NCBI RefSeq assembly: GCF_019052655.1
Contig: NZ_JAHQVB010000020.1
Location: forward strand, 1 to 32,888
Reading direction: 5' to 3'
Source: Holdemanella porci
GTDB lineage: Bacteria > Bacillota_I > Bacilli_A > Erysipelotrichales > Erysipelotrichaceae
Length of the DNA: 32,888 bases
Shown here: one piece after another, positions 6,401-30,393 of the stretch
Layout of the letters: the number at the start of each line of letters is the position of its first letter
How positions within the stretch are numbered: position 1 is the first letter of the stretch
Notes under the pieces: generated by a model
The model's database searches: none
What the model was told of the DNA's origin: nothing
What the model saw: only the letters and a program-made list of their open reading frames with translations
Program-made: the position numbers and the translations under genes

Positions 6401-6768
6401 TGCTCCTGATTTACCGGTTCCACATAATAGACCGCTTTGTAAGTGTCCACATGATCTGTCGTAAAATCCTCATTCTTGTCGTTCTTTGCTTCCTCAAATG
6501 TGACTTTAACCTTGTCAGCATCCTTGATTTCCAGTCCTGTGTAGTCTGATTTCACATCAAATACACTGCCTGTTTCAAGTTCATAATCTTTGGCAGTCAC
6601 CACCTCCTCTTCATCCAGAAGGTCTTTCACTTCCTCATAAAGTGGCGGTTTTTCCTCTGGCTGGATCTCCGCTGCATATGCAGTCATCGGAGATAACACT
6701 GTACTAAGCATTGTCATGCCTGCCAGCAATCCAGATACTACTTTCCTAAAATTACCTTTTTTCTTCAT
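487..6768 (-). CDS. Giant Cna-B repeat surface adhesin with sortase signal
   Basis: A secreted, wall-anchored protein of 2093 aa, SpaA/Cna-B type. The start is set at ATG 6768 (MKKKGNFRK): GAGG precedes it, and the upstream in-frame extension reads through the terminator of topB. Order: signal peptide ending TAYA-AE; an acidic Glu/Ser/Thr-rich stretch; a thioester-domain-like region with AYCVQPAKPG and, further on, IIIHMAASYANGSSDAF; then about fourteen Cna-B-like modules, each opening with a Lys/Asp strand (IVKKDD, VVKQDKDT, ISKTD) and closing with an E-box such as KEITAPQGYV or REEQAPKGYL. Isopeptide bonds in such modules are known for the family. The C-terminus has a variant sorting motif APKTG, a hydrophobic segment and the tail SRKRK. 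Next to the transfer genes it probably helps attach mating cells or host surfaces; that role is inferred. Confidence 0.92.
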   Translation of the reverse strand: MKKKGNFRKVVSGLLAGMTMLSTVLSPMTAYAAEIQPEEKPPLYEEVKDLLDEEEVVTAKDYELETGSVFDVKSDYTGLEIKDADKVKVTFEEAKNDKNEDFTTDHVDTYKAVYYVEPVNQEHPKYQISRKLIVREKETEVQTETAGSEAVTESETAGSEQQTEEAEDSESDSEITDIDADEFDDLVEQAQNQDTYDEESGLELHDVLEQAGDEGVDLDSMEEGEIATFEAVSAYSARSTQQVTIEKGPLYRYADYNLGTYLTEPYYISYGSVRATAYCVQPAKPGPGSGNYTITKIGDNQALAKVCYYGTDAAGSESFFANKHTDFSEGKRFIIIHMAASYANGSSDAFYGTNATGEALAKELYNYCANKPEIPDVAMSFSKPNVKAYVDGNVQRTENIKFNASSQQKITMDLPKGVKLYNVSTGNVSAAGASVTIGGGTTFYLSAPLTQTRDVSATFSAKMKGSITKDYSAYKLTTNASVQDLAFVFGEGVADEKYVSLKVSWIEQATIEIVKKDDTADVNLAGAVFGVYSDEACTKLIIQMPATDKNGKSSVTIIKTQDTVYLKEITAPQGYVVNATATNVKLVASKTSSVTVENKEQLAELTIYKEGQVLTGADVSENGTVFQYENRRQKNAVYNVYAGADIVTAYGTKVYSKGDLVKDNLTTGENGSVTLKNLHLGSYVVKEAKAPDNFYNGSEEKPVTLTYAGQNKEVVFADVTFNNERQKADVSVVKQDKDTKKPLNGGIFALYASDDIKNADGTVVVKKGTLIEKATTGADGTAKFTADLPIGYSYSVKEDQAPEGYVRNTEDVYTFKFSYTNDKEATVLFAHTFSNDRVTAKINLFKVDKETGKAVPQGDATLKGAVYGLYAREDIVHPDGATGTIYKAGEQVASLTTDDKGQSSVKGLYLGKYYVKEITPPTGYLADTEEHDLVCSYEGDMTAEVKRECTSSEQVIKQPFQIIKAANNGKTDADLLSGAGFTVYLKSSLTKKADGSYDFDSAKPVVSRENGATEIFTDEKGYACSIPLPFGSYIVRETTTPHNYKPVDDFEVNITEHHPNEPQIWRVLLDEEFKAKLKIVKKDDETKKSVLIAGTEFKVYDLDNKKYVEQVTTYPVTTTHKSYFTDSQGYLIMPKNLKIGHYRIEEVNAPEGYTINKNYVEIAVDANTAYQMDSESGDAIITVDYENHPVKGKLTIYKKGEMLTGFKKDFVYEERYLKGASFHVYAAENIYTPDYQKDENGNRQLIYAKDALVTTVTTGEDGKAVADNLPLGSYYVVEKTAPEGFVLNHDRSDVSFVYADQDTPVIEQEVMVGDDRQKVAIQVEKQDAENGAPVAGAVFGIYNTEDLKNEKGEIIVKADTLLQEMTSDNDGLAACTLDLPLGQYYVKELKAPAGFVSSDEVLNLDASYQGQDVKTVKLKTVKKNQPTTVEITKSDVTTGVELDGAKLTVLDKEGNVVDQWTSVKDQPHVIKRLTVGKEYTLREEIAPYGYLKATDVKFTLEDTAEIQKVEMKDEVPTGLLIINKNGEFLDKVTLLDHVKGTVEHLFEYVTGSLSDVAFDVFAAEDIKAADGVSEDYFKADEKVGTITTDSNGIAQMGDLPAGKYYVKEVKTAHGYVLDKEPRYVDLSYRDQDTPVITYDEKWQNARQKVKVTVLKKEKDTERVLAGGVFGLYTSEDIKNAKGEVLLEKDSLIEQRVTDEKGQITFTADLPVDGKYYVKEIFAPDGFVTTEEVQEFTFEYAGEDQAEVSYDFTFENQPTTVELSKTDLTTGKELPGAHLKVTDSDGNTVDEWTSTEESHVIKELVVGKKYTMTETKPADGYVTAESITFTVENTAEVQKHEMKDDVTKVEISKTDITGETEIPGAKLTILDEDDQVVESWTSTEEAHYIEKLPIGKYTLREEQAPKGYLLTSDVSFEVKDTGKIQKVAMKDDTAKGKVILNKTDKSSGEPLKGVEFELRDSKGKVLETLKTDAAGHAESKLYEIATFKNGKYDTAIKYYLVETKTLDGYTLDQTKHEVTFAYADDSTPVVEVTFNLTNEKPEVPETPNTPQSHEETKVSNAPKTGDSTNIWLPILLLVISTGGMAGLYISRKRK

Positions 6769-6800
6769 GCTAAGGTCCTCTCTTTCATAATATTTGTATG

Positions 6801-6826
6801 AAAACAGACAGTCCTTAGACTGCCTG
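6801..6826 (-). terminator. Terminator between topB and the adhesin gene
   Basis: On the minus strand CAGGCAGTC pairs with GACTGTCTG (one G-U pair) around TAAG, followed by TTTT. It starts 12 bases after the topB stop. The T-run is short, so it may be only partly effective. The bases after it, TTTTCATACAAATAT, nearly match those after the terminator at 433-460. Confidence 0.65.
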
Positions 6827-6837
6827 CAATACATTAC

Positions 6838-13586: not shown

Positions 13587-16043
13587 TTAACCTGCTTCGG
13601 AAGTTTCCTCTAAGCGGGTTGTCATGATTTTATAGAGGGAATTCTTCGGGAATCTGTCTACGAACGGGATAATGACATTTCCATAGAACAGAAGTCCTTC
13701 CCCCTCATTACTGTTGGTTACATAGGACAGCTGGGTTGGTGAGATATTCAGCTGTTTTGCAAGAATCTGCCTGTCTCCGGAAGCCTGGTTCAGCATATAA
13801 ATAAAATCTGAATTTTCAAATATATTCTCTATTTCCCTGGAAGACAATAAATCCTTAATATTCTGGGTGATGCCCGTTGGGATACCACCCCATTTACGGA
13901 ATCGCTTCCAAATCTCCACGCTGTAGGCTGCAGTCTGCTCTTCCTTCAAAAGAAGATGGAACTCATCCACATAGTATCTGGTGGACTTATGGGCAGAACG
14001 GTTCATCGTTACCCTGTTCCAGACCTGATCCTGGATTACGAGCATCCCAATCTTTTTCAGCTGTTTTCCCAATTCTTTGATGTCAAAGCAGACAATGCGG
14101 TTATTGATATCCACGTTTGTCTGATGGTTAAATACATTCAAAGAGCCTGTAACATAGATCTCTAATGAAGTAGCCAGCCGCTGTGCTTCCGGCTCTTCCT
14201 GTTTTCTCAGAAGGTTGTATAAGTCCTCCAGGATTGGCATCTTCTCCGGTATTGGATCGGCAAGGTATTCCTGATATACTAACCGCACACAACGGTCAAT
14301 AATCGTTTTTTCTACCGGTTCCAATCCATTCTTTCCTCCAACAATCAGCTCACACAAAGACAGGATAAAATCTGCTTTCAATGACAGCGGATTATCTTCC
14401 TCAGAATAATTCAGGTTCAGATCCATTGGATTGATATACTGGTCAGATACCGGCGAAACTCTTACCACCTGCCCATGCAGCGCCTGCACAAGTGCCGAAT
14501 ATTCGGCTTCTGGATCACAGACAATGATATCGTCCTCCGTAATCAAAAAGCAGTTTGTAATTTCCCTCTTTGCTGAGAAGGACTTACCGGAACCTGGTGT
14601 ACCAAGAATCAGTCCATTCGGGTTCTTCAGACGTTTCCGATCAACCATGATCATGTTGTTGGATAATGCATTCAATCCATAATAAAGAGCTTCCCCTTCC
14701 TGAAACAGTTCCTGTGTCGTAAATGGCACGAAGATCGCTGTTGAAGATGTGGTAAGCCCTCTCTGAATTTCAATTCGATTGACTCCAAGCGGAATACAGG
14801 ACATGAGTGCTGCTTCCTGCTGATAATCCAGCTGTTTTAAGGAACAGTTATATTTCTGTGCGATCCCCTGCACCTGGAAAATATTATTATCCAGCTTCTG
14901 ACGCTTCTTTGCGGTATTCATTACCAGAACTGTCACAAGGAACATTCTCTCATTTCTGGACTGCAGATCTTCCAGCAGATTCTTTGCCTCTTCGCCATAA
15001 GTCACAAGGTCCGATGGAAGCACGTCCATATCATAACCGGAACGTACCGCACGCTTCTGCTCTTCGATCTTCATCTTATCAAGATCAGAAATCTTACTCT
15101 TGATCATCTTGATTGCTGAACTCTGATCAATGGACTGGATATGAATGTTGACATTGATGCTGTCATCCACATCCAGAAAATCTGCAAGCATCCGGTCTGT
15201 CAGCTCCGGTGCAAGAATCTGAAGGTAACTCACACTTCCCATCGTTCTTCCCATCAAAAATGTCTGATTCTTGGAAAAGTTAAAGGAAGTCGGTGCAATA
15301 AAATCTTTGGTCTTTAATCCGGTTTCCGGAAGCATCTTGTACTGGAACTTAAATGGTTCAATCCGATCCTGGTTGAACACATGATACAGAATCTCCAGCC
15401 TTTCCAGTCCATTCAAAGAATGTGCCTGTGCTCCCAGAACCTTAAAGTTATTTAAGATATCTGTTTCGATTCTTTCAAGCCTTGGTCTTGCTACCTTCAG
15501 ACTTTCTGCTTCAATTCCAAAAGTGATATACTTCGTCTTTACCAGACCATTATTTCCTTTGGAAAGCTGATTTTTCAGCATAGTACGGTATTCTTCACGA
15601 ATGGCATTGAAGTCATCGTTCTGATCCGGAATATCAATACTTTTCTCAAATTCTGCCACATCCACCTGCTGATTGATAAAGGACAGCTGCACACTGATGG
15701 AAGAATCAAAGTAATTTAAGAAATCACAGTAATTCTCAAATATCGTGGTCTTATCCTCATTTAAAGCCAGCTGATAATTGATGTCATAAAACTGAATCGT
15801 CTTAGAGAAAAAGGTCTTTGTCACCTGGCAGATACCATCCTGCAGCATCCGAATATACGGAATGCTCTGCTGTGCAGTTGTAGGAATGCCTTTCTGTTTC
15901 CTGCGATTCCGTTCCTGTTTCTTCTTACGCTTTTCCTGTTCTCTTTCTTTTCTGCTTTTTTTGTTTCTTCTTTCCTGACGGTTTCTTTTTTCCGCCAGAG
16001 ACAGACGCTCCTGCTGAGCCTCCTGCTTTGTCTTTTTTGCCAT
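13587..16043 (-). CDS. VirB4-like conjugation ATPase
   Basis: 818 aa from ATG 16043 (MAKKTKQEAQ), which has GGAGG nine bases upstream; an in-frame GTG three codons earlier is too close to that site. Residues 1-52 are an extremely basic Lys/Arg/Gln stretch. The C-terminal ATPase domain has Walker A GTPGSGKS at 481-488 and Walker B IIVCDPEAEYS shortly after. The rest matches the VirB4/TraE ATPases of Tn1549-type ICEs. It powers channel assembly and DNA transfer at the inner face of the membrane. It overlaps the PrgI-like gene by 119 bases. Confidence 0.94.
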   Translation of the reverse strand: MAKKTKQEAQQERLSLAEKRNRQERRNKKSRKEREQEKRKKKQERNRRKQKGIPTTAQQSIPYIRMLQDGICQVTKTFFSKTIQFYDINYQLALNEDKTTIFENYCDFLNYFDSSISVQLSFINQQVDVAEFEKSIDIPDQNDDFNAIREEYRTMLKNQLSKGNNGLVKTKYITFGIEAESLKVARPRLERIETDILNNFKVLGAQAHSLNGLERLEILYHVFNQDRIEPFKFQYKMLPETGLKTKDFIAPTSFNFSKNQTFLMGRTMGSVSYLQILAPELTDRMLADFLDVDDSINVNIHIQSIDQSSAIKMIKSKISDLDKMKIEEQKRAVRSGYDMDVLPSDLVTYGEEAKNLLEDLQSRNERMFLVTVLVMNTAKKRQKLDNNIFQVQGIAQKYNCSLKQLDYQQEAALMSCIPLGVNRIEIQRGLTTSSTAIFVPFTTQELFQEGEALYYGLNALSNNMIMVDRKRLKNPNGLILGTPGSGKSFSAKREITNCFLITEDDIIVCDPEAEYSALVQALHGQVVRVSPVSDQYINPMDLNLNYSEEDNPLSLKADFILSLCELIVGGKNGLEPVEKTIIDRCVRLVYQEYLADPIPEKMPILEDLYNLLRKQEEPEAQRLATSLEIYVTGSLNVFNHQTNVDINNRIVCFDIKELGKQLKKIGMLVIQDQVWNRVTMNRSAHKSTRYYVDEFHLLLKEEQTAAYSVEIWKRFRKWGGIPTGITQNIKDLLSSREIENIFENSDFIYMLNQASGDRQILAKQLNISPTQLSYVTNSNEGEGLLFYGNVIIPFVDRFPKNSLYKIMTTRLEETSEAG

Positions 16044-16389
16044 CCGGCACACCCTCCTTTTTTACAAGGGTGGAAATCTCCTGATAAAAATTTTCTGTCT
16101 TATATGGTCTTACCGCTGGACAGATAAACTTCTGTCGAATGATATTTGCCACCACTTTTTCAAAGGGAAGCCCGTCTTTTTCATACATCGCCATGAAGAA
16201 AAATGGAAGCATGATCGTTACCATCAGAATGGCAGCAATACTGGAACCGATTGGTTTTCTCATGAACAGATAAAACGGAATCCCCACAACTGCGGCAAGT
16301 GAAAAGAAAATCAGCTGCCGCTTTGTCAGATTTAACGCTACTTTTGTTTTGACCTTGGTAAGGTCTTTTGGTACTGGTACATACGCCAT
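15925..16389 (-). CDS. PrgI family (VirB3-like) membrane protein
   Basis: 154 aa. The N-terminus MAYVPVPKDLTKVKTKV is typical of PrgI proteins. Two closely spaced hydrophobic helices lie at about residues 27-43 and 49-68, then a conserved FEKVVANIIRQKFICPAVRPYKTEN segment in the cytoplasm. The last 50 residues are Gly/Ser/Lys-rich and end in a run of Lys/Arg; that part lies entirely in the overlap with virB4. AAGGAG precedes the ATG. VirB3-like subunits pair with VirB4, which fits the gene order. Confidence 0.9.
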   Translation of the reverse strand: MAYVPVPKDLTKVKTKVALNLTKRQLIFFSLAAVVGIPFYLFMRKPIGSSIAAILMVTIMLPFFFMAMYEKDGLPFEKVVANIIRQKFICPAVRPYKTENFYQEISTLVKKEGVPDGKKDKAGGSAGASVSGGKKKPSGKKKQKKQKRKRTGKA

Positions 16390-17633: not shown

Positions 17634-19520
17634 TTACTCCGACAGTTCTACATGAATCACTTCCACCTCTTCTTCGGGTTTCGGTGTGTACTGCGGATTT
17701 AACTCTTTCTCTACTTTGTACCGGTTCTTCTCGTTTTCATCTGCAAGAAGCCGATAGTTTTTGTGTTTCGTGATATCATATTTATCCGAGAAAAATGGTC
17801 TGGCACCACGGATCTGCAGGATACATTTTCCTCCATCCATGACTGCAATCTCATCTTCCGTCATCAGCTGTTTGCCCGTTTTCTGGTAATTCAATCCAAA
17901 AGACTTCTGATTACTCCTCGTTTCCGAAGTGTTATACAGGTCAATGGTTTCCTTCCCCAGAAGCTCACTCATTTCCTTTAAGGTGGTTTTCTCTTTGCCA
18001 CCAAGAAAAAGTGTAGTATCACAGTTGCCCAGAATGGTATCTGCACTATCCTTATACATTGCCTTTAACTGACTCTGCGACTGCAAAATAATAGAAGCAG
18101 AGATTTCCCTGCTTCGAATGGTTGCAATCAGCTTGTCAAACTGAGGAATCTGTCCGATGTTGGCAAACTCATCAGCGATGACACGCACATGCACCGGAAG
18201 TCTTCCACCATATTCATCATCTGCCTTATCGCAAAGCAGATTAAAAAGCTGTGACTGTAACATGGCAATCACAAAGTTGAATGTGGTATCCGTATCGGAC
18301 ATGATCAGAAACAAGGCTGTTTTCCTGTCACCGATCTTATCCAGTTCCATTTCATCGTAAGACATGATCTCACGAAGTTCTGCGATATCAAATGGGGCAA
18401 GTCTGGCTCCACAGGATATCAAAATACTTTTCGCTGTCTTTCCAGCCGCCATTTTGTATTTTTTATACTGTCTGACCGCAAAGTGCTGCGGATCTCTTTC
18501 TTCCAGTTCCTGGAACATCATATCCACAGGATTCTGGTAAGTTTCATCCTCTTCACGCGTTTCGCTTTCATTCAAAAGATCCAGAAGGGTATTCAGATTC
18601 TTTTCCTCTTCATCCCCTTCATACCAGATAAAAGCAATCAGTGCTGTGTACAGCAATTTCTCTGCTTTCACCCAAAAATCTTCGGAAGCTTTTTCCCCTT
18701 CGCCTTTGGTATTCACAATGATTGTTGTCACCAGCTTCAGGATATCTTTTTCAGACCGTATATAAGCAAATGGATTGTAATGAAGCGATTTTGAAAAGTT
18801 AATGGTATTCAAAACCTTAATCACATATGGCTCATGAACCACTTTTCCGGATTTATCTTTCATGATATTTCCATTCTTATCTTTCTTAGGCGGTCCCTTT
18901 GCTAACATCTTCCCGCACTCCTCAATGAGAGTGCCCTTTGGATCTGTAATGACCATGGAACAGTTCATCTGCATGACCGACGGCTTTACAAAAAATCGTG
19001 TCTTTCCGGAACCACTGCCACCGATGACCACGATATTTTTATTTCTCGCATACTTCGGCTGCTTTGGTCTGCTCTCCATGGTCAGTGCTTCTGTTGCTGT
19101 CAATGGAATGTTCATCCATGGATCTTCTGACATATAAGGCTTGATATCCTCTGCATTTCCCCATCTGGCTGAACCATACTCGATTCCTTTCCGGAGTTTC
19201 TTTGCATCTGCCTGTTTCTGCCAGACCAACACTTTCAGAACGACTGCAACAACAATACCTGCTAGCAGATCTTTCCAGTTATTGCTTAACACAAAACCAG
19301 CAAAAATCCGGTCTGCGTGTTCCATTGCATATAATAGTTTGTTCCCCATATCTTCTCCCGGACTGTTCCGGTAAAGAAAAAATGCCCGGTCTGCATAGAA
19401 AGCAGCCAGAGCATAAGGAATATTTGTAAGAACCAGTTTCTTTTTATCCAGGGCGGACAGCCTGACCCTGATCTTATTCTTCCATTTTTGCATCAGATTT
19501 TTACCGATTTGCTTTTTCAT
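17634..19520 (-). CDS. VirD4/TraG-type coupling protein
   Basis: 628 aa. Two N-terminal membrane segments (about residues 30-50 and 82-100) are followed by the ATPase domain: Walker A GGSGSGKT at 167-174, then MVITDPKGTL, and VIADEFANIG as the Walker B region in the second half. It matches the type IV coupling protein that recruits the relaxosome and pumps DNA into the channel. The ATG overlaps the pcfB stop by four bases (ATGA), so translation is coupled. The C-terminus is acidic (PKPEEEVEVIHVELSE), which is ordinary for the family. Confidence 0.95.
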   Translation of the reverse strand: MKKQIGKNLMQKWKNKIRVRLSALDKKKLVLTNIPYALAAFYADRAFFLYRNSPGEDMGNKLLYAMEHADRIFAGFVLSNNWKDLLAGIVVAVVLKVLVWQKQADAKKLRKGIEYGSARWGNAEDIKPYMSEDPWMNIPLTATEALTMESRPKQPKYARNKNIVVIGGSGSGKTRFFVKPSVMQMNCSMVITDPKGTLIEECGKMLAKGPPKKDKNGNIMKDKSGKVVHEPYVIKVLNTINFSKSLHYNPFAYIRSEKDILKLVTTIIVNTKGEGEKASEDFWVKAEKLLYTALIAFIWYEGDEEEKNLNTLLDLLNESETREEDETYQNPVDMMFQELEERDPQHFAVRQYKKYKMAAGKTAKSILISCGARLAPFDIAELREIMSYDEMELDKIGDRKTALFLIMSDTDTTFNFVIAMLQSQLFNLLCDKADDEYGGRLPVHVRVIADEFANIGQIPQFDKLIATIRSREISASIILQSQSQLKAMYKDSADTILGNCDTTLFLGGKEKTTLKEMSELLGKETIDLYNTSETRSNQKSFGLNYQKTGKQLMTEDEIAVMDGGKCILQIRGARPFFSDKYDITKHKNYRLLADENEKNRYKVEKELNPQYTPKPEEEVEVIHVELSE

Positions 19521-20090: not shown

Positions 20091-20888
20091 TTAACCGGTA
20101 ATCAGGTTCTGCACCTGTACGAGTTTTTCTGTCCCTTCTTCTTTTCTCTTATCTTCTCCACCACAATAGATGGGAACACACATTTCAAGTATTCTACTGT
20201 AAATACGCTGATGGGCAGTATCCAAGTCTGTGGATTTCATTTCATTCAGTCCCAGATTCGTTGTTACGATCAGCGGAAGCATTTTACAATAGCGGCTGTC
20301 TATCACATTATAGACCTGCTCCAAAGCAAACTCAGAATTTCGTTCTATTCCTAAATCATCAATAATCAGCAGCGGATAATCCACAAGATTTTGTATAATC
20401 TGGTTCTTATCTGCCTGATAGCTGGTCATTTCATTTAAAATCCTGGAAAAATTCGTCATCATGACACGTTCTCCCTGTTCCAAAAGTGCATTTGCAATAC
20501 AGCCTGCAAAGAAACTTTTCCCAGTTCCAACTGGTCCCATCAAAAGCAATCCTACATTTTTTCTCTTCATATCTGTCCAGTTTTCTACATACTGCCTGGC
20601 AATTAGTGTCTTCTGGTTGCTTCCATTGTCATTTTCAAATTTCCATTCCCAGAATCTTCTTTCCCGAAGTCCGACGGATTTTCTCTGATAAAGCAGCCGC
20701 TGTGCTTCTTCCCGCTGCATCTTCTCATCCAGTTCCTGTCTGGCTTTCACCTCGCATTCGCACAAACAGGATACTACATGCTCAAATCCCATCAGACTGA
20801 CTTTCATCTGTTTTCTTTTTCCACAGATGCCACAATGAAGACATCCCTCTTTGTCCAGATAATCTGCTGTTACTTTATTTTCCATCAC
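20091..20888 (-). CDS. DnaC-like helicase loader ATPase
   Basis: 265 aa. An N-terminal cysteine cluster (CLHCGICGK at 16-24 and CLCEC at 41-45) may bind zinc. The AAA+ domain has Walker A GPVGTGKS at 118-125, Walker B LLIIDDLGIE, and an arginine-finger region IYSRILEMC. It matches DnaC/DnaI-type proteins that load the replicative helicase at plasmid and phage origins. The start overlaps the RepA stop (ATGATGG, four bases), so it is made together with the initiator. It probably serves ICE replication, not transposition (IstB) since no transposase is nearby. Confidence 0.9.
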   Translation of the reverse strand: MMENKVTADYLDKEGCLHCGICGKRKQMKVSLMGFEHVVSCLCECEVKARQELDEKMQREEAQRLLYQRKSVGLRERRFWEWKFENDNGSNQKTLIARQYVENWTDMKRKNVGLLLMGPVGTGKSFFAGCIANALLEQGERVMMTNFSRILNEMTSYQADKNQIIQNLVDYPLLIIDDLGIERNSEFALEQVYNVIDSRYCKMLPLIVTTNLGLNEMKSTDLDTAHQRIYSRILEMCVPIYCGGEDKRKEEGTEKLVQVQNLITG

Positions 20889-21703
20889 AGGCTTTCTCCT
20901 TCCTGAAATTCATATTTATCCATTCCTGCCCTGGCTCCATCCCGTTCTGCCCAAAGACAGATTGTTGCAAAATGGTTCTGATATTCTTTTCCACTGGATT
21001 TCATATAAACAGAAAGATGATCAATTCGTTTCTGGTAATCCCATGGAAAAAGCATCATCAACTCCCGCAGTTCAGCTTCCGACAGAACAACATTTTTAAA
21101 TCTCCCATACAGACTGAATTTTTCTTCCAAAGCGGAAGTATTGCCCTTACTCTTATCAGTATGATTCTTTTCAGTCTTATTTATCTTAGTATTATTTCCA
21201 TCCAGATTCTTGCAGTCCGGACTTCTATTTTTTTGCGTTCCGGACTTCCAGTTTCTTGCAATCCGGATTTCCAATTCTTTGCAGTCTGGATTTCCAGTTT
21301 CTGGCGTTCCAGAAGCAACGTATCTTACTGGCTTTCCTCTGATCCGTTTCACAAAATTTTTCACATATATGACAGAAGGACGATTATTCCCCTGCCGATA
21401 CCGTTCGATCAATCCAATCCCATGCACACTGTCAAGCTCATAAAGAAGCTTTGTCACTGTCGTATGCGACATTCGCAACAGCTCCTGCAATTCTGCGATC
21501 GTGTAAATAATATAGACATAACCATCACCGTCAATCCAACCATTTTTCTTGGATAGGCTGATTCGATCAAGCAGAATTCCGTAAAGGAGCTTTGCGTCTG
21601 TGGACAGGCTTGCAAACTCTTTTTCTGTGAACAGAGCTTTTGGTATCCGAAAAAAAGAAAACTGGTCAGATTCTTCTGCTCTGAAATATTCAAAATCTGC
21701 CAT
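20885..21703 (-). CDS. RepA_N-type replication initiator with internal iterons
   Basis: 272 aa. Residues 15-120 form a RepA_N domain (FFRIPKALFTEKEFASLSTDAKLLYGILLDR; winged-helix part ending NRPSVIYVKNF). A low-complexity linker at about 131-167 (NPDCKELEI, NWKSGTQKN, SPDCKNLDG) is encoded by a 23-bp direct-repeat array. The C-terminal domain at about 195-272 contains LMMLFPWDYQKRIDHLSVYM. In RepA_N plasmids the origin lies inside the rep gene between the two domains, which is the layout seen here. It starts 9 bases after the second RepA_N-like gene and is coupled to the helicase loader. Confidence 0.88.
   Translation of the reverse strand: MADFEYFRAEESDQFSFFRIPKALFTEKEFASLSTDAKLLYGILLDRISLSKKNGWIDGDGYVYIIYTIAELQELLRMSHTTVTKLLYELDSVHGIGLIERYRQGNNRPSVIYVKNFVKRIRGKPVRYVASGTPETGNPDCKELEIRIARNWKSGTQKNRSPDCKNLDGNNTKINKTEKNHTDKSKGNTSALEEKFSLYGRFKNVVLSEAELRELMMLFPWDYQKRIDHLSVYMKSSGKEYQNHFATICLWAERDGARAGMDKYEFQEGESL
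21210..21313 (-). repeat. Five 23-bp direct repeats (iterons), candidate oriV
   Basis: Plus-strand cores: TTGCAGTCCGGA at 21210, TTGCGTTCCGGA at 21233, TTGCAATCCGGA at 21256, TTGCAGTCTGGA at 21279 and the weaker TGGCGTTCCAGA at 21302. Start-to-start spacing is exactly 23 bases each time. The three-base-odd period shifts the reading frame from unit to unit, so the similarity is held at DNA level. The repeats continue past the core (CTTCCAG or TTTCCAG follows). Position inside repA matches RepA_N plasmid origins. Confidence 0.88.
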
Positions 21704-21712
21704 AATATTTTC

Positions 21713-22591
21713 CTACTCTTCTACATCGAAATCACAATTTGCCGCACTACCTGTACCATGACATAATTCATCAAGCACATAATTGAATGCATTCATCGCC
21801 TCTTCCAAATAGATTTTCCTAGCCTCTTTATCACACGCATACATATCGGCAATAAATCCTTCATCATTTCCTATTGCGTGTACCAGAGTCTCCAAAACTT
21901 TCATAAATTTCTTTTTTGAACACTTTTTATTCTGCCTGTTCACATATTTCTGAATATCCAGTACTCTATCAGCATTTTCCTCATTCTCTTCAAGAATTCC
22001 AAACGCCAGATCCATGCCAAATTCATAGCCATCACAGGAAATCTGATCAACATCAAGCTGTCCCAGCTCATCTCGATAATTTCTTTCTTCCATTGAAGTC
22101 AGTGGTGTCCCATATTCATCCAGATATCCCATATCTGCAATTGTTTCCAGAATATCTCTGGATGCTTTCACCATTTTGTCCATAATGATTTCTCTTTCTT
22201 CCATCGGCATATTTGCCATAATGCTGTCTAATGTCATCATTGATTCTTCCTCCATCTCATTTTCATAAATATCGTTGATATAAAAGTGGTTTGCTTTTCC
22301 ATTGTTCGGAATGATACGCACCAGATTTCCAACCTCCACCAGTTCCTGTACTGCCTGATCTACCCCATATCTGGTTGTATTCAGGTCTTTCTTCATTTCA
22401 CTTTTTGGATAAATTACATACAAATCCCCCTTACCATCTACCCAACCATTCTGCACCGCAAATTTCAAACGATCCAGAAATAAGCTGTATAAAATCTTTG
22501 CTGTATTTGACAGATTTTTGTATTTTTCCATCTGGAACAGCACCTTCGGCACCTGCAGACAATCTACCGGCATATACTCCATCTTACTCAT
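21713..22591 (-). CDS. Second RepA_N-like protein
   Basis: 292 aa. Residues 8-112 are clearly related to the RepA_N domain of the next gene: VPKVLFQMEKYKNLSNTAKI against IPKALFTEKEFASLSTDAKL, and both contain a GW(V/I)DG(K/D)G motif. The remaining 180 residues are acidic and helical (MPMEEREIIMDKM, LGQLDVDQISCDGYEF) and do not resemble the other copy. No iterons are seen in it. It may be a copy-control or co-initiator protein, or a regulator built from a RepA_N head; I cannot decide. GGAGG lies just before the ATG, inside the end of the upstream gene. Confidence 0.8.
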   Translation of the reverse strand: MSKMEYMPVDCLQVPKVLFQMEKYKNLSNTAKILYSLFLDRLKFAVQNGWVDGKGDLYVIYPKSEMKKDLNTTRYGVDQAVQELVEVGNLVRIIPNNGKANHFYINDIYENEMEEESMMTLDSIMANMPMEEREIIMDKMVKASRDILETIADMGYLDEYGTPLTSMEERNYRDELGQLDVDQISCDGYEFGMDLAFGILEENEENADRVLDIQKYVNRQNKKCSKKKFMKVLETLVHAIGNDEGFIADMYACDKEARKIYLEEAMNAFNYVLDELCHGTGSAANCDFDVEE

Positions 22592-22989: not shown

Positions 22990-23388
22990 CTATCTAAACG
23001 GCATTTCCTCTTCCATGCCCTCTGGGATCTCTAAGAACCCTTCCGCATCTTCTGGAAACGGTGGTCTGTCAACCATTTTTGCACCAGCGAATTCAATCCG
23101 GTTTGCATACACTTCAGTGGTATAGATCTTTTTCCCAGTATCCTTATCTTCATAATTACCTGTGACAATCTCGCCTTCCACCATGACCTTCGTTCCCTGC
23201 ATCAGATAATCTCTGGCAAATTCTGCTTTCTTTGCAAAAGCCTTTACCGGAATAAAACTGACTTCATCGGAATAATTTCTTCTGACTGCCAGAACAAACT
23301 TGGCAATCTTATGAAGTCCTTTTTCATTCTCCACTTCGTTGTATCCGGGATTTCTTACCAATCGCCCGGAAATAACTGTTGTATTCAT
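22990..23388 (-). CDS. ssb: Single-stranded DNA-binding protein
   Basis: 132 aa with an OB fold: MNTTVISGRLVRNPGYNEVE, then FVLAVRRNYSDEVSFIPVKAF and GTKVMVEGEIVTGNY. The C-terminus is acidic and ends EEEMPFR, a variant of the usual DDDIPF tip that binds partner proteins, with one extra Arg. ICE-borne SSBs coat transferred single strands and support replication. It lies 13 bases after the cysteine-rich gene and 13 bases before the next. Confidence 0.92.
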   Translation of the reverse strand: MNTTVISGRLVRNPGYNEVENEKGLHKIAKFVLAVRRNYSDEVSFIPVKAFAKKAEFARDYLMQGTKVMVEGEIVTGNYEDKDTGKKIYTTEVYANRIEFAGAKMVDRPPFPEDAEGFLEIPEGMEEEMPFR

Positions 23389-24399: not shown

Positions 24400-24534
24400 T
24401 CACTTCCTTCCTGCTGATAATCCTAATGTTTTCAACAAATGTTTAAACTTCTCTCTTTTTATCTGTTTAACACGTATCTTTTCTATCTTTTTCAGATAGA
24501 CTTGTATTCTACTTGCCATATCTTCATTGCTCAT
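24400..24534 (-). CDS. Small basic protein, 44 aa
   Basis: Read by hand. MSNEDMASRIQVYLKKIEKI onward, ending SAGRK; very rich in Lys and Arg, one long amphipathic helix. The ATG overlaps the parB stop (ATGA), and AGAGGG lies upstream, so translation is coupled to parB. I do not recognise it; a small DNA-binding or regulatory partner is possible. Confidence 0.65.
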   Translation of the reverse strand: MSNEDMASRIQVYLKKIEKIRVKQIKREKFKHLLKTLGLSAGRK

Positions 24535-25436
24535 TCTTTACCCTCTCTTTCTGCCCACGATGCCAGAAGCATAAATATAATTTCTTCCATCTGAGTCTTT
24601 GTATATGTCTCTGGAAAATATTGTTTCAATTTCTTCGCCGGAATCTGCACCTGAACTTTTTCAATACTTTCATTAAAACAGATCTGGTCAATCTCTGAAT
24701 ACGTCAACATCCGCTCTTTTGAAATCTGCTTCAATTCCTTTGCCTGCTTCATGGACGGTACCATATTGTGATTACTCATATACTGAAGCAATATCTGTTG
24801 TTCTTCACTTCTCAAATATGAAACTTCAACAGCTGTATTAAAGGGAAGCTTCTTCTCGTCTGCCAGTTCTAAAAGCTCTGTGATTAACTCTGTCAGATGA
24901 ATATATCGAAGAATCTGTCTGGAACTATCTCCTGTATTCTGACTGACTTCTTCCGCCGCCAACTTCTTGCCAACTTGGCAAGAAGTTAAATCAGACCGTT
25001 TCCCCTGACGCTTTAACGCCTCATATTTCATTTTATAAGCAAATGCCTTTTCGCTGATCAGCAGCTCTTCTCGTTGAATGTTGGAATCTACCATGATCAC
25101 CGTCGCTTCATCATCTGTAAGATCTTTGATGATAACAGGCATTTTCTCTAATCCTGCAAGTTCACATGCTCGTTTTCGCCGATGACCAGCTACAAGCTCA
25201 TAACCACCGGACTCTCTCAACCGCATAATACCAGGAACCAACACGCCATACTGTGTAATGCTATCTGATAATTCTTCCATTTTCTTATCATCTTTTACTT
25301 GAAATGGGTGATTCGGAAATGGATGAAGGCTTCCTATTGCTATCTCACTAATTCCATTGGTCATCTCTTCATTTGTTCCAAACAACGCATCAAGTGGCTG
25401 TAAGGAAATGGTAGTTGCTCTTTTTTTAGATGGCAT
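24531..25436 (-). CDS. parB: ParB/Spo0J-type partition protein
   Basis: 301 aa. The N-terminal nuclease-like ParB domain has IGSLHPFPNHPFQVKDD, the CTP-site motif GHRRKRA and DSNIQREELL. A helix-turn-helix region follows (SCQVGKKLAAEEVSQNTGDSSRQILRYIHL), then a C-terminal dimerisation part. It overlaps parA by 11 bases and has GGAGG upstream. ParB binds parS sites and works with ParA to segregate the replicated or circular ICE. Candidate parS DNA is described at 26246-26298. Confidence 0.93.
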   Translation of the reverse strand: MPSKKRATTISLQPLDALFGTNEEMTNGISEIAIGSLHPFPNHPFQVKDDKKMEELSDSITQYGVLVPGIMRLRESGGYELVAGHRRKRACELAGLEKMPVIIKDLTDDEATVIMVDSNIQREELLISEKAFAYKMKYEALKRQGKRSDLTSCQVGKKLAAEEVSQNTGDSSRQILRYIHLTELITELLELADEKKLPFNTAVEVSYLRSEEQQILLQYMSNHNMVPSMKQAKELKQISKERMLTYSEIDQICFNESIEKVQVQIPAKKLKQYFPETYTKTQMEEIIFMLLASWAEREGKE

Positions 25437-26211
25437 CTTTCAGCACCTCCTCCGTCACTCTCCGATAGGCTTCTGTAGCTTTGCCTTTCGGATCATAAGA
25501 GAAAATACTCTGTCCTTCTCTGACTGCTTCCTTCATTCTTACAGAAAATGGAATATAATTATCAAAAATATGAATTTGACTTCCATATACATTTCTAAGA
25601 AGTTCCATATTATTTCTGGCATCATTTGTATGAGCATCGACCATCGTGAACAGAATCCCACCGACCTGCAGCTTCGGATTAATCTGCTTACGAACCTTAC
25701 CGATCGTTTTTAACAATTGCTGCAATCCTTTGATTGGCAGGTAGGACGCTTCAACTGGAATGAGGACTTCATCTGATGCAGCCAGCGCATTGATCGTAAT
25801 CATTCCCAATGATGGCATACAGTCAATAATGACTGCATCATATTGATTCTTGATACCATATAAAATCTGTTTCAATACATATTCCCTGCTCATTGCATTT
25901 ACCAACTGTACTTCCGTACCTGCCAGTCCAATGTTAGAACAGATAATGTCTATTCCCTCTGCTTGATGTCTGATATAACAGTCTGAAGGAATATCTTCAT
26001 CTTTCATTACTGCATCCATAAGAGCTGTAAGTGTTTCATTACTGTCATCACAATCACGATATCCAAATCCTGCGGATACATCAGACTGTGGATCGGCATC
26101 TACAATCAACACTTTCATATTCTTTTGTGCTAATCCTACTGCTAAATTAGCTGTACATGCGGATTTTCCCGTTCCCCCTTTTTGGTTTACAATAGAAATA
26201 ATTCTAGCCAT
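25426..26211 (-). CDS. parA: ParA-type partition ATPase
   Basis: 261 aa. Deviant Walker A KGGTGKS at residues 11-17, then VLIVDADPQSDVS, and the Walker B region VIIDCMPSLGM. It matches small (type Ib-like or Soj-like) ParA proteins without an N-terminal DNA-binding domain. GAAAGGTGATG precedes the ATG. It is the first gene of the ICE from the right end. Its leader holds a long dyad that may act as operator, partition site or attenuator. Confidence 0.95.
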   Translation of the reverse strand: MARIISIVNQKGGTGKSACTANLAVGLAQKNMKVLIVDADPQSDVSAGFGYRDCDDSNETLTALMDAVMKDEDIPSDCYIRHQAEGIDIICSNIGLAGTEVQLVNAMSREYVLKQILYGIKNQYDAVIIDCMPSLGMITINALAASDEVLIPVEASYLPIKGLQQLLKTIGKVRKQINPKLQVGGILFTMVDAHTNDARNNMELLRNVYGSQIHIFDNYIPFSVRMKEAVREGQSIFSYDPKGKATEAYRRVTEEVLKDAI

Positions 26212-26298: not shown

Positions 26299-26489
26299 AT
26301 AATTACAATAATTCTGTTGTTTTTACTCTTGTCTTACACAAATCCATTTCCAGTCTGGATCTGTAATAATTCATATTCTGGAATGACAGCGCTGCCTTAT
26401 TTTTCCCTTTTTCAGGGAGTTAAAGATAAGGACTAAATTAGTGCAACCCCTTGTATTTACTGGAGTTTTCTAACTTGTCCCTATTATAA
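26299..26489 (-). promoter_or_regulatory. ICE right-end leader region of parA
   Basis: About 190 bases without a gene. It must hold the parA promoter. A TTGCAC hexamer (minus strand, just upstream of the third 13-bp copy) could be a -35 box, but no convincing -10 follows at the right distance, so the promoter is not assigned. Otherwise only a short CCCT/AGGG dyad at 26404-26417 is seen. Confidence 0.35.
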
Positions 26490-27531
26490 CTCGACCATGT
26501 GGTGTAATATTAGGCAATTCCTTCTTGTAGATGCTGTTATACTTTTCTACCGCATAATGCATATGCTTATTCCAATGTAGTGAATATAGAATACTGCCAT
26601 TTCTATCAAAAGCTAAAAAGCCAGATACACCATCAACTGATGGTTCTTTTCTTTTAAAATTAGGTCTATTTTGAATCATTCGTTTAAAACAACTTTCCAC
26701 ATCGCTTGTCATAGGAATGATACGCGTACCCGCTTCTGACTTTGTTTCTTGAATATAGTATTCACGATTCTTTTTCATCAACTGCTTGTTGATGTTGATC
26801 GTATGATTTTTAAAGTCTACATCATCTAGTGTTAGACCACAAAACTCAGATATACGCATACCTGTATTGAACAAGATATAAAAGCCATCATAAAACTCAC
26901 TAAAGTGCTTATCTTCTTTCACAAATTTCAAAAATCGTCTCTCTTCATCTCGAGTAATTGCTTCACGAGTCACTGAATCGTTATAAATTACATCTACCAA
27001 TTGGAAGTTAAATGGATTCTTACGAATCAAATCATCGTCATGTGCCATTTGAAAAGCTGGTCTTAATACACCACGAATACTAGTGATTGAACTATAGCTA
27101 CGACCATCCTTTTTTTGAAGTTTGATCAACCAACACTTCGCATCCGATATTTTAACATCACTAATTTTCATCTGGCCAAAACGATCTTTTTTTAGAATAT
27201 TCACCACAGTTTGATATCCAGCTTTTGTATTGATTCGAACATTTAACTTCGTAGAAATATACTTTTCAACTAGCTCTAACACCGTGATACTCATTCCGTC
27301 AGTATTGATGCCTTGCATCATCTCAAATTGGATCTTTTTTTCCATCTCGCGAAGTGAAATACCTTTTTTCTTACCACGTGGAGCTCTATCTTTTTGACAT
27401 AAACGTAAACTATAGATAACCTTCATCTTTCCATCTACATCTTTATACTTATAACGATATCTACCATCTGACATCTGTACTTCGCCTGTATGAAGCAATC
27501 TTCCCTTGTTATCATAACGTCTTTCTTGCAT
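26470..27531 (-). pseudogene. int: Tn916-type tyrosine integrase, C-terminus lost
   Basis: 353 codons from ATG 27531 (MQERRYDNKG), which has AGGGGG upstream; an earlier in-frame ATG at 27579 is less likely. The sequence follows Tn916 Int through the N-terminal arm-binding domain, core-binding domain and catalytic domain: Arg226 in NTGMRISEF and the beta-hairpin Lys264 region (TKSEAGTR) are present. It reaches NITPH, the first His of the HxxR motif at residue 345, then changes to GRVIIGTS and stops. The second Arg, the last His and the nucleophile Tyr are missing (Tn916 Int has about 405 aa), so the product cannot be active. The break coincides with the ICE end. Confidence 0.92.
26490..26496. 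other. Inferred junction of the nested ICE and the integrase gene
   Basis: Homology to Tn916 Int stops at codon 345 (26497-26499), followed by GGT and CGA. If the intact gene encoded ITPHGLRHT, as many related integrases do, GGTC would be common to both sides. A GA dinucleotide at 26493-26494 would suit a TndX/TnpX-type serine recombinase, which recombines at such dinucleotides. The precise base cannot be set without the other end of the ICE. Confidence 0.6.
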
Positions 27532-27561
27532 ATTTATTTTCCCCCTATCATATATATAAGA

Positions 27562-27606
27562 AAGACCGTTGACACCCATATATTAGCGTACCTACGGCCT
27601 TTTTTC
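27562..27606 (+). terminator. Hairpin between xis and int with T-run on the plus strand
   Basis: AAGACCGT (27562) and ACGGCCTT (27594) form an 8-bp stem with one G-U pair, followed on the plus strand by TTTTTT. Loop is 24 bases, so stability is moderate. On the minus strand the stem ends in TTTCTT, a weak T-run that could lessen xis read-through into int. Confidence 0.45.
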
Positions 27607-28816: not shown

Positions 28817-29551
28817 CTATTTTAAGCGGAAGTTTCTATCCCCATTTTCATCCGATATCTCAGTAAAATACTTAGATTTTGTAGCCTTTTCGCAGATTCT
28901 ACCAAACATAGCTTCATCCAATGCGATTAATTCAGCTTCTTTTTTCTCAGTGGAGATGATGGTACATTTATCTTCCTTGTATCGATAATCGAGTATCTCA
29001 AACAGCTCAAGATTACACTTCGCATCCTCAAATTTAAACAAATCATCTAGAAATAACACATCTGTGTGTTTGGCTTTATCCACCAAGCCATCTGCATTAA
29101 ACATCTTAATATCACGAACCAATGAGGGATAAGTCATGTAGCTAACGCGCTTACCTAATTCCATCAATCCATTCGCCGCAATTGAACATAAATGCGTTTT
29201 ACCAGTCCCAGTTTTACCCATGAATAGCAACCAAGGTAATGGATTCTGGTTTTTTATTGCTAGCTTAGAATCATTTAAATAACTTTGAACCACTTCCTTG
29301 CAATACTGTTGCCAACTTTCATTAGTTTGAAAATTGTCCAGACTTTTATTCAACAGATTACCCATGCCAGATATCTCTTTTAGATGCTCAATTTTTTTCT
29401 TCCTGAATTCAACGATTTTTTCACAAGTAAATCTATCTTGGCATTGATATGTATATTCAACTGGTAAATCATATCCTTTCTCGATTTGATCGTAATTGAA
29501 TATTCCTTTCCCCCCGAAAGCAAGACATATTTTGCATTTTTCTCCATTCAT
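28817..29551 (-). CDS. Second DnaC-like helicase loader ATPase
   Basis: 244 aa. An N-terminal cysteine pair (CKICLAFGGKG) with further Cys at 37 and 43 may bind zinc. The AAA+ domain has Walker A GKTGTGKT at 112-119 and Walker B VLFLDDLFKF; the arginine region is MFGRICEKATKS. It matches phage and satellite DnaC/DnaI-type loaders and is only distantly like the ICE copy. It overlaps the initiator stop by four bases (ATGA), so initiator and loader are made together, as in many Gram-positive phages. Confidence 0.88.
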   Translation of the reverse strand: MNGEKCKICLAFGGKGIFNYDQIEKGYDLPVEYTYQCQDRFTCEKIVEFRKKKIEHLKEISGMGNLLNKSLDNFQTNESWQQYCKEVVQSYLNDSKLAIKNQNPLPWLLFMGKTGTGKTHLCSIAANGLMELGKRVSYMTYPSLVRDIKMFNADGLVDKAKHTDVLFLDDLFKFEDAKCNLELFEILDYRYKEDKCTIISTEKKEAELIALDEAMFGRICEKATKSKYFTEISDENGDRNFRLK

Positions 29552-30336
29552 ATAACATTCCCCCTTCTTTTATAGTTTTCATTTGATTTTTGACAATCAT
29601 TAAGATAGATTTCAAACTTATCACCAAACAAAGTTGATGGTCTAAGATACTGTGCATACTTCGTATTCGTCCATTCTTTGCATTTTTGATCAATAACAGA
29701 AATCATATCTTGTTCACTAAAACCTTTAGCAAGAAGTGCATCAATATAATCAATAAACACCTCTGAGTCTAGCTTATAAGATTTGTCACATTTCAAATTA
29801 AAATGTTGAATGATGTTCGAGTAAATTTCCCTATTCTTCTCTTCTTTAATTCTCTCTTTATACTTCTTATCTTTATTTATATATAAAGAAGTCTCAGAAT
29901 TTGGAATTGTACATTTCCCTTTTTTAGAACTTGTACATTTCCCAATTTCAGAATTTGTACATTTCCCATTTTGATGACTTGCATTTACTAATTTTTGGAA
30001 CTGCTTATGATAGTACATTTCCAACAATGACCATCCTACGTCATCATACGTATACCAATACGTTCTATCCCATGGATTCTTACCGTGATGAACACGCTTG
30101 AACAACTTTAATTCTTCCATTTTTTTTAGTAGAACATATACCCTATTTTTCTTAAAAAAAGGAAGATACTCAACAATTCTTCGCGCAGGCATAAACACGC
30201 CTTTTTCTACATCAAATCCATCATTACAACAATATTTATCAATAAAGTAAGTGAAAAAGCTAAATATAATAGCAATCTCAATACCATATTGAACCGCAAT
30301 GTTGATAACAACAATCTGATACAATACTTTTTCCAT
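29548..30336 (-). CDS. Phage-type replication initiator with internal iterons
   Basis: 262 aa from ATG 30336 (MEKVLYQIVV), with AAAGGA upstream; the longer in-frame start would place the promoter dyad inside the gene. Residues 15-130 form a winged-helix replisome-organiser domain (FMPARRIVEYLPFFKKNRVYVLLKKM). The linker has three in-frame GKCT repeats encoded by iterons. Residues 165-250 resemble the conserved phage replication C-terminal domain (Phg_2220_C/DnaD-related): VIDQKCKEWTNTKYAQYLRP and TLFGDKFEIYLN. It would open the origin and recruit the adjacent loader. Confidence 0.85.
   Translation of the reverse strand: MEKVLYQIVVINIAVQYGIEIAIIFSFFTYFIDKYCCNDGFDVEKGVFMPARRIVEYLPFFKKNRVYVLLKKMEELKLFKRVHHGKNPWDRTYWYTYDDVGWSLLEMYYHKQFQKLVNASHQNGKCTNSEIGKCTSSKKGKCTIPNSETSLYINKDKKYKERIKEEKNREIYSNIIQHFNLKCDKSYKLDSEVFIDYIDALLAKGFSEQDMISVIDQKCKEWTNTKYAQYLRPSTLFGDKFEIYLNDCQKSNENYKRRGNVI
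29907..29967 (-). repeat. Three 24-bp direct repeats (iterons) inside the initiator gene
   Basis: The core TTGTACATTTCCC occurs without change at 29907, 29931 and 29955, exactly 24 bases apart. AGAA precedes the second and third cores. A degraded unit follows at 29979 (TTGCATTTACTA) and an isolated GTACATTTCC lies at 30013. The array codes for the linker of the initiator. Replisome-organiser genes of Gram-positive phages commonly carry their origin in this place. Confidence 0.85.
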
Positions 30337-30358
30337 ATTTGTTTGTCCTTTCTTTCTA

Positions 30359-30379
30359 TCAATTTGTTGAACAAATTGA
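30359..30379. promoter_or_regulatory. 21-bp dyad, candidate rep operator
   Basis: TCAATTTGTT and AACAAATTGA are perfect mirror arms around one base. The dyad lies 22 bases before the initiator ATG and about 15 bases downstream of a TATAAT, so a bound protein would block rep transcription. Confidence 0.7.
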
Positions 30380-30393
30380 AAACAATACAATCG

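Follow-up and report, generated by a model that had tools for sequence, protein, structure and literature searches.

A likely RepA_N-type theta origin inside the repA gene of a CD1115/Tn1549-type ICE, next to an element-encoded gene for a proposed helicase loader

In the plasmid pSK41 the replication origin with its Rep boxes lies centrally in the rep gene and encodes the linker of the Rep protein, which also has a separate C-terminal effector domain. A Rep from which the linker has been deleted still works in trans, and the C-terminal domain binds the host DnaG (PMC5703833, accessible part). RepA_N iterons are direct repeats with inverted arms that converge on a poly-A tract, a pattern that is not always discernible, and the opening process of RepA_N initiation is called unknown in a 2019 paper (PMC7145576, excerpts). 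RepA_N genes, partly accompanied by ParA, are also carried by ICEs of the TnGBS1/2, Tn5252 and Tn1549 families; replication is reported for the maintenance of TnGBS1/2 and suggested for the other two families (PMC4701971, accessible part). Chromosomal RepA_N genes beside recombinases were suggested to have other roles because conjugative transposons need not self-replicate (Weaver 2009, via excerpts of PMC7145576). RepA_N theta origins inside rep and RepA_N proteins on ICEs are already known from the accessible parts of PMC5703833 and PMC4701971, respectively. The proposed coupling to a helicase loader gene and a 15-bp element appear to be new here. In the open-licence literature, covered by titles and the beginnings of abstracts, no in-gene iterons of a CD1115/Tn1549-type ICE repA, loader coupling or 15-bp element were recognised.

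The locus lies in a stretch of 32,888 nucleotides from Holdemanella porci, here called the window. The region belongs to an ICE with a conjugation module of the CD1115/Tn1549 type, and the genes that surround the proposed origin are the following.

17634..19520, minus strand: VirD4-like coupling protein of the CD1115 family, marking the conjugation module (NCBIfam NF045973)
20091..20888, minus strand: DnaC/IstB-like AAA+ ATPase, the proposed helicase loader (Pfam IstB_IS21, NCBIfam PRK08116)
22990..23388, minus strand: SSB, upstream in the same gene block (Pfam SSB)
24531..25436, minus strand: ParB-like partition protein (Pfam ParB_N)
25426..26211, minus strand: ParA-like partition ATPase (Pfam AAA_31)
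26470..27579, minus strand: Tn916-type tyrosine integrase of the element (Pfam Integrase_DNA and Phage_integrase)

Further left are a TrbL/VirB6-like protein (TrbL_2), a VirB4-like ATPase (P-loop_TraG) and a CD1107-like protein, as well as a peptidoglycan hydrolase and a topoisomerase. VirD4, TrbL/VirB6, the VirB4-like and the CD1107-like protein form a conjugation module of the CD1115/Tn1549 type, which is joined by the integrase and ParA. On its left side the element probably continues beyond the window. A very large surface protein (2115 aa), in which a thioester domain and 14 SpaA-type stretches were recognised, is encoded at 487-6834 (minus strand) and is probably an adhesin carried as cargo. 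A search of the window for RNA families at gathering threshold and for tRNAs found none.

The DnaC-like gene overlaps by 4 bp the gene that contains the proposed origin.

20885..21703, minus strand: repA-1, 272 aa, RepA_N initiator holding the proposed origin (Pfam RepA_N, E 6.2e-27)
21125..21340, minus strand: DNA of the predicted disordered linker, residues 122-193 (AlphaFold pLDDT below 50)
21288-21310, minus strand: first iteron, 23 bp
21265-21287, minus strand: second iteron, 23 bp
21242-21264, minus strand: third iteron, 23 bp
21219-21241, minus strand: fourth iteron, 23 bp
21196-21218, minus strand: fifth iteron, 23 bp
21147..21195, minus strand: AT-rich segment made up of some three units of 15 bp, AATACTAAGATAAAT, AAGACTGAAAAGAAT and CATACTGATAAGAGT, the proposed DNA unwinding element
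21713..22591, minus strand: repA-2, a RepA_N paralogue without iterons (Pfam RepA_N, E 1.5e-21)

The RepA_N match (PF06970) covers residues 16-90 of the repA-1 product. The PDB relatives of this N-terminal domain are the four solved RepA_N domains, 4pta, 4pt7, 4pql and 5kbj, the last being a Rep-DNA complex. With phmmer the domain finds 4pta (E 4.2e-24) and 5kbj (E 5.1e-21), and Foldseek with the predicted structure, a modest model (mean pLDDT 62.4, pTM 0.42, 0 residues at 90 or more), finds 4pql (E 1.2e-8) and 5kbj (E 1.4e-7); all four entries are reached by either route. By sequence and by predicted fold the protein shares the winged-helix N-terminal fold of the solved RepA_N proteins, and the significant PDB matches of both kinds cover its N-terminal part only. 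The model is ordered to residue 121, falls below a pLDDT of 50 over residues 122-193 and continues as an ordered helical part to about residue 256. The DNA for the linker encloses both the iterons and the AT-rich segment.

The array consists of five units of 23 bp on the minus strand at 21196-21310, central in the rep coding sequence as in RepA_N replicons. The locus does not resemble a Rep_3 iteron plasmid, since the Pfam match is to RepA_N only and the iterons lie within the gene. A repeat search places copies at 21201, 21224, 21247 and 21270 (spacing 23, 23, 23), and Tandem Repeats Finder gives 21201-21310 with period 23, 4.8 copies, 72% matches and 0% indels; the two agree on the period, and the five core copies at 23-base intervals in coding sequence of the original prediction are confirmed. 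The core TTGCnnTCCGGA is exact in three of the five copies, TTGCAGTCTGGA differs at one position and TGGCGTTCCAGA at two. One arm is degenerate in each of the two outer iterons, the right arm in the case of the fifth. The codon offsets of units 1-5 are 0, 2, 1, 0 and 2, and because the offset rotates from unit to unit the peptide PDCK is encoded only by units 2 and 5, which lie 69 bp apart, in agreement with the original prediction. The span first given for the array, 21201..21324, is about 14 bp too generous at its right edge, and the functional region likely reaches left to about 21147. The origin target to test is about 170 bp.

An iteron search of the whole window that allowed up to 3 mismatches gives 14 matches where chance predicts 11.7, and all three matches with 0 or 1 mismatch fall inside the array. 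One of the two with two mismatches lies outside it, at 16034-16048; further iterons beyond the array were rejected. DnaA boxes were also discarded as part of the origin, the window holding 11 loose matches against about 5 expected with no cluster at the origin. A loose match, TTTTTCACA, is located at 21357-21365 (plus strand), about 47 bp from the iterons.

The array and its surroundings are likely to constitute an in-gene theta origin of the RepA_N type on a CD1115/Tn1549-type ICE, at which RepA would recruit the element's own loader. Autonomous replication would proceed in the following manner. After excision, dimers of RepA would attach with their winged-helix N-terminal domains to the five semi-palindromic iterons of 23 bp, upon which the adjacent AT-rich segment of 15-bp units would melt. 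The C-terminal domain, attached through a flexible linker whose coding sequence is the origin itself, would recruit the DnaC-like loader from the next gene, and the loader would place the replicative helicase on the DNA for theta replication. Until the circle re-integrates, its replication and segregation would be assisted by the SSB and ParAB of the element. A candidate in-gene origin had been proposed at the outset, and the correspondence in position with the RepA_N anatomy of pSK41 (PMC5703833, accessible part) argues for this interpretation. The original prediction did not include the AT-rich element, the coupling to a loader or the paralogue without iterons, which are added here.

Relatives were collected by a genome scan (16 related loci), a viral-contig scan (one locus) and a family-level search around the nearest genome, in which 114 of 299 genomes had a match. 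The last contributed 49 loci, and six more came from annotated records. Twenty of the added regions were picked by hand, mainly among matches that reached the C-terminal end, and blind to repeats and DnaC genes. The sample comprises 75 ORFs of the repA-1 class, 67 of them distinct, from 65 loci including the window; L015 and L042 contribute two each. Protein identity to RepA-1 of the window ranges from 97% to 30% among 27 aligned relatives. The relatives are phylogenetically linked, and thinned sets were used for the Thr codons, the 15-bp motifs and the CTD-loader counts only.

One alternative is that slippage maintains the array as a neutral tandem repeat of a disordered linker and that it has no DNA function. 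The linker is indeed predicted to be disordered, which implies weak protein constraint, and one relative (L010) carries a single 15-bp in-frame insertion. Set against this are the phase of the repeat and its behaviour under codon shuffling. Period 23 is the top or tied period in 17 of 17 loci of the first scans. When periods of 12-40 bp are tested, a range that excludes the double unit of 46, the best period is 23 in 62, 22 in four and 20 in one of the 67 distinct ORFs. Thus 66 of 67 have a period of 22-23, while the frame-keeping spacings 21 and 24 are best in none. The period of 22 (L022, L025, L028 and L029, of which L022 is not above its shuffles) is not a multiple of three either. In the window the period-23 score of 54 out of 69 exceeds all 100 of 100 synonymous-codon shuffles that leave the protein unchanged (maximum 50), and 60 of the 67 distinct ORFs surpass all 100 of their protein-preserving shuffles. 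The seven that do not are L010, L022, L027, L041, L063, the first part of L015, which is a piece of a split gene, and the second ORF of L042, which is short. Related ICEs devoid of any repeat, or units diverging freely in spacing, would have spoken against the original prediction; neither pattern emerges from these counts, and the spacing shows no drift.

In the alignment of the window with 16 of the first 17 loci (L016 left out) letters change and spacing is kept. Several right arms read GC in L013 and L014 where the window has AA, a parallel change in more than one unit. Codon identity, counted where the amino acids of both genes agree, is 17/20 in the iterons between the window and L013, compared with 50/107 for the N-terminal part and 26/44 for the C-terminal one. 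With the close relative L012 the contrast is weak (iterons 24/31, AT-rich part 18/20, N-terminal 75/116, C-terminal 62/71). The repA-2 class is an internal control, with the same domain and mostly on the same element: none of its 17 distinct ORFs has the array, as none exceeds all shuffles or has a period of 22 or 23. A repA-2-type paralogue adjoins repA-1 in L001-L015 too; regulator and co-initiator are candidate roles for it. The repA-1 relative of L015, a MAG, is split into two frames within the iteron region (about 2983-3767), and such a split might arise when the number of 23-bp units changes; it could be real decay or an assembly error.

The consensus units provide a further argument. 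In 61 arrays (44 distinct), with arms of 9 bp and a centre of 5 bp, a mean of 6.32 of the 9 arm positions pair, against a mean of 4.87 and a maximum of 5.16 in 200 shuffles of the letters. A recount over the full dyad gives 7.23 of 11 pairs against 5.61 when shuffled (maximum 6.05). The window consensus, GGACTGCAA-AAAAC-TGGAAATCC, pairs at 6 of 9 positions and at 6 of 11 over the full dyad. Units of relatives are AGAATTGTG-AAAAT-CACAATTCA in L035, AGAAGTTCG-GAAAT-CGAACTTCC in L032 and GGAATGCAA-GAAAC-TTGCAGTCC in L013, and the semi-palindrome is clearer in L035 and L013 than in the window. Of the 44 units, 33 have an A- or T-rich centre, 27 of them at the usual dyad point and six, all in the L049-L066 group, at the opposite one; 11 of the 44 lack it at both points by the cut used. 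The A-poor unit centre seen at first in the L049-L066 group was recognised as an artefact of rotation, the A-run being at the opposite dyad point in six consensus units. The iterons are semi-palindromic with arms that converge on an A-tract, as described for RepA_N. The arms differ between lineages yet still pair. Together with the absence of the array from the paralogue class and the synonymous conservation relative to L013, this speaks against a neutral linker repeat, which the codon-preserving shuffles and the phase lead us to reject as highly implausible. The array is a conserved DNA feature, and the original claim that conservation acts on the DNA is supported by the shuffles, the synonymous identity and the semi-palindromic arms.

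Directly after the last iteron on the coding strand come the AT-rich units. By nearest-neighbour duplex energies no 50-bp stretch of repA is less stable than the one that starts at 21147, which ranks at the 99.6th percentile of the 32.9-kb window. Codon identity between the window and L013 over 21131-21200 is 12/12. The region could be anchored by its amino-acid pattern in 55 of 64 genes, the other nine being left out, and in these 55 the third-position GC is 0.30 in the segment versus 0.48 in the N-terminal part; it is lower in the segment in 52 of them. This extends to the GC-rich L070, with 0.22 in the segment and 0.69 in the N-terminal part. In 26 thinned genes the Thr codon is ACT in 43 of 56 cases within the segment and in 32 of 250 elsewhere; other amino acids shift less than Thr, and glutamate displays no clear shift. 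Near or after the end of the array, AATACT occurs in 24 copies in 16 of 31 thinned genes (codon-shuffle mean 6.5, maximum 12) and ACTGA in 35 copies in 17 of 31 (mean 15.1, maximum 25), a set that includes two pieces of L015. Neighbouring motif copies are 15 apart in 21 of 22 cases. Among the thinned genes the two motifs were not found in the L049-L066 group and some others; this group keeps a different AT-rich stretch. Like patterns exist in two rep genes without a 23-bp array, from Planococcus with a significant 30-bp period and from Lactiplantibacillus by eye and not significant. The AT-rich segment is likely an unwinding element, and the opening step in RepA_N initiation may rely on its 15-bp unit.

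The iterons could instead be RepA sites that serve mainly control (autorepression, handcuffing, incompatibility) or partition and not initiation, since iteron arrays also function in the copy control of Rep_3 plasmids (PMC5703833, accessible part) and ParAB is encoded nearby. We consider this unlikely. The array sits in the middle of the gene, parB being about 3.2 kb away, and the 50 bp with the lowest duplex stability in the gene come right after it. Relatives retain the array whether or not their fetched stretch contains ParA or ParB, and the same position is the origin in pSK41 (PMC5703833, accessible part). It is similarly improbable, and slightly more so, that the array serves for assembly of the machinery of second-strand synthesis or priming once conjugative transfer has taken place, and not for theta initiation on double-stranded DNA. 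In favour of this, the element is conjugative and has its own loader and SSB near repA, whereas semi-palindromic double-strand sites next to a weak duplex segment fit melting of a duplex, and the relative pSK41 initiates theta replication from this position (PMC5703833, accessible part). With a complete-looking theta origin in 22-23-bp steps at 65 loci, autonomous replication becomes the default expectation for these ICEs.

The C-terminal domain of RepA would connect the proposed origin to the proposed helicase loader. All 37 loci with a RepA C-terminal domain of the window type have an adjoining DnaC-like gene of the same orientation, compared with 0 of 28 loci in which the C-terminal part is of another kind or cut short, as judged from the fetched stretch, which in a few of the 28 stops at a contig end. 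Thinned to less than 70% identity in the N-terminal domain, the counts are 10/10 versus 0/13 (Fisher 8.7e-7). The 23-bp array is present in both groups, and ParA or ParB is found in the fetched stretch of 20 of the 28 loci without loader. The simplest reading is a common origin and DNA-binding domain with exchangeable effector ends, of the primase type in pSK41 and of the loader type here. We infer a contact between RepA and the loader; the pairing could also be linked inheritance without contact. The pairing yields a concrete hypothesis for host range.

A more general proposal, which we advance tentatively, is that RepA_N origins are bipartite in ICEs and plasmids alike, with lineage-specific iterons, a shared unwinding repeat of the AATACTGAT type and cassette exchange of the CTD and loader. 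It is conceivable, if less than even in probability, that iterons in 22-23-bp steps generally precede a sequence-specific 15-bp repeat of wider distribution than their own, which RepA perhaps reads as a single strand. The DnaA-trios of chromosomal origins follow a comparable logic. With similar reserve, the ICE branch may have exchanged the primase-type CTD, as a cassette, for one with an element-encoded helicase loader. Should this be true, the ICE would be free of host helicase loading and may therefore replicate in many hosts.

The origins of lambda O-like phages have the same layout, with iterons inside the initiator gene, an AT-rich segment after them and an adjoining helicase loader gene, and belong to an unrelated initiator family. 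An example of such a phage-type in-gene origin is apparently contained in the same window. A phage-type replication protein (Pfam Phg_2220_C) is encoded at 29548-30390 (minus strand), with in-gene repeats at 29900-29972 made up of three GGGAAATGTACAA units about 24 bp apart. The stretch that follows is, at the 99.9th percentile, among the least stable of the window, and a DnaC-like gene (28817-29551, minus strand) adjoins. The whole lies right of the ICE integrase and is likely an in-gene origin of the phage type.

The PLE satellite of Vibrio cholerae likewise encodes a RepA_N protein, which binds its semi-palindromic iteron. Unlike in the window, the PLE origin is noncoding and RepA alone is insufficient without the phage (PMC7145576, excerpts). 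The accounts of TnGBS1/2, Tn5252 and Tn1549 are silent on iterons and on an in-gene origin in the accessible part of PMC4701971. The circular 115.6-kb plasmid pAPRE01 of Anaerococcus prevotii (L067) carries, in the same order as the window, a repA with a 23-bp array, a DnaC-like ATP-binding protein, PcfB and a CD1115-type VirD4. It differs by a RepA identity of 35% and an extra gene before VirD4, and the block resembles an ICE lodged in a larger plasmid. Because its annotation includes at least one further possible initiator gene, pAPRE01 does not prove that repA drives replication and was set aside as proof of autonomous replication.

Among 11 plasmid rep genes tested the array is present in three (L067, L069 and L072) and absent from eight, seven of them from Lactobacillales and one from Planococcus, and a universal 23-bp unit for RepA_N was rejected on this count. 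The original premise that RepA_N plasmids keep their origin inside rep agrees with the anatomy of pSK41 (PMC5703833, accessible part), and the eight rep genes without the array limit how far the 23-bp form of it extends. L068 and L071, from records labelled plasmid, also have the array; a 591-kb Aerococcus record with this label was left out as plasmid evidence and may be misassigned. In the two Staphylococcaceae plasmids, L069 and L072, the 23-bp array is followed by an AT-rich stretch. There is a close likeness to the pSK41-type staphylococcal replicons, which share with the window, as interpreted here, a RepA_N N-terminal domain, an origin within rep, a linker and a separate C-terminal domain (PMC5703833, accessible part). 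The window differs from pSK41 in its location on an ICE and in a C-terminal domain of another type, which is paired with a DnaC-like gene encoded by the element.
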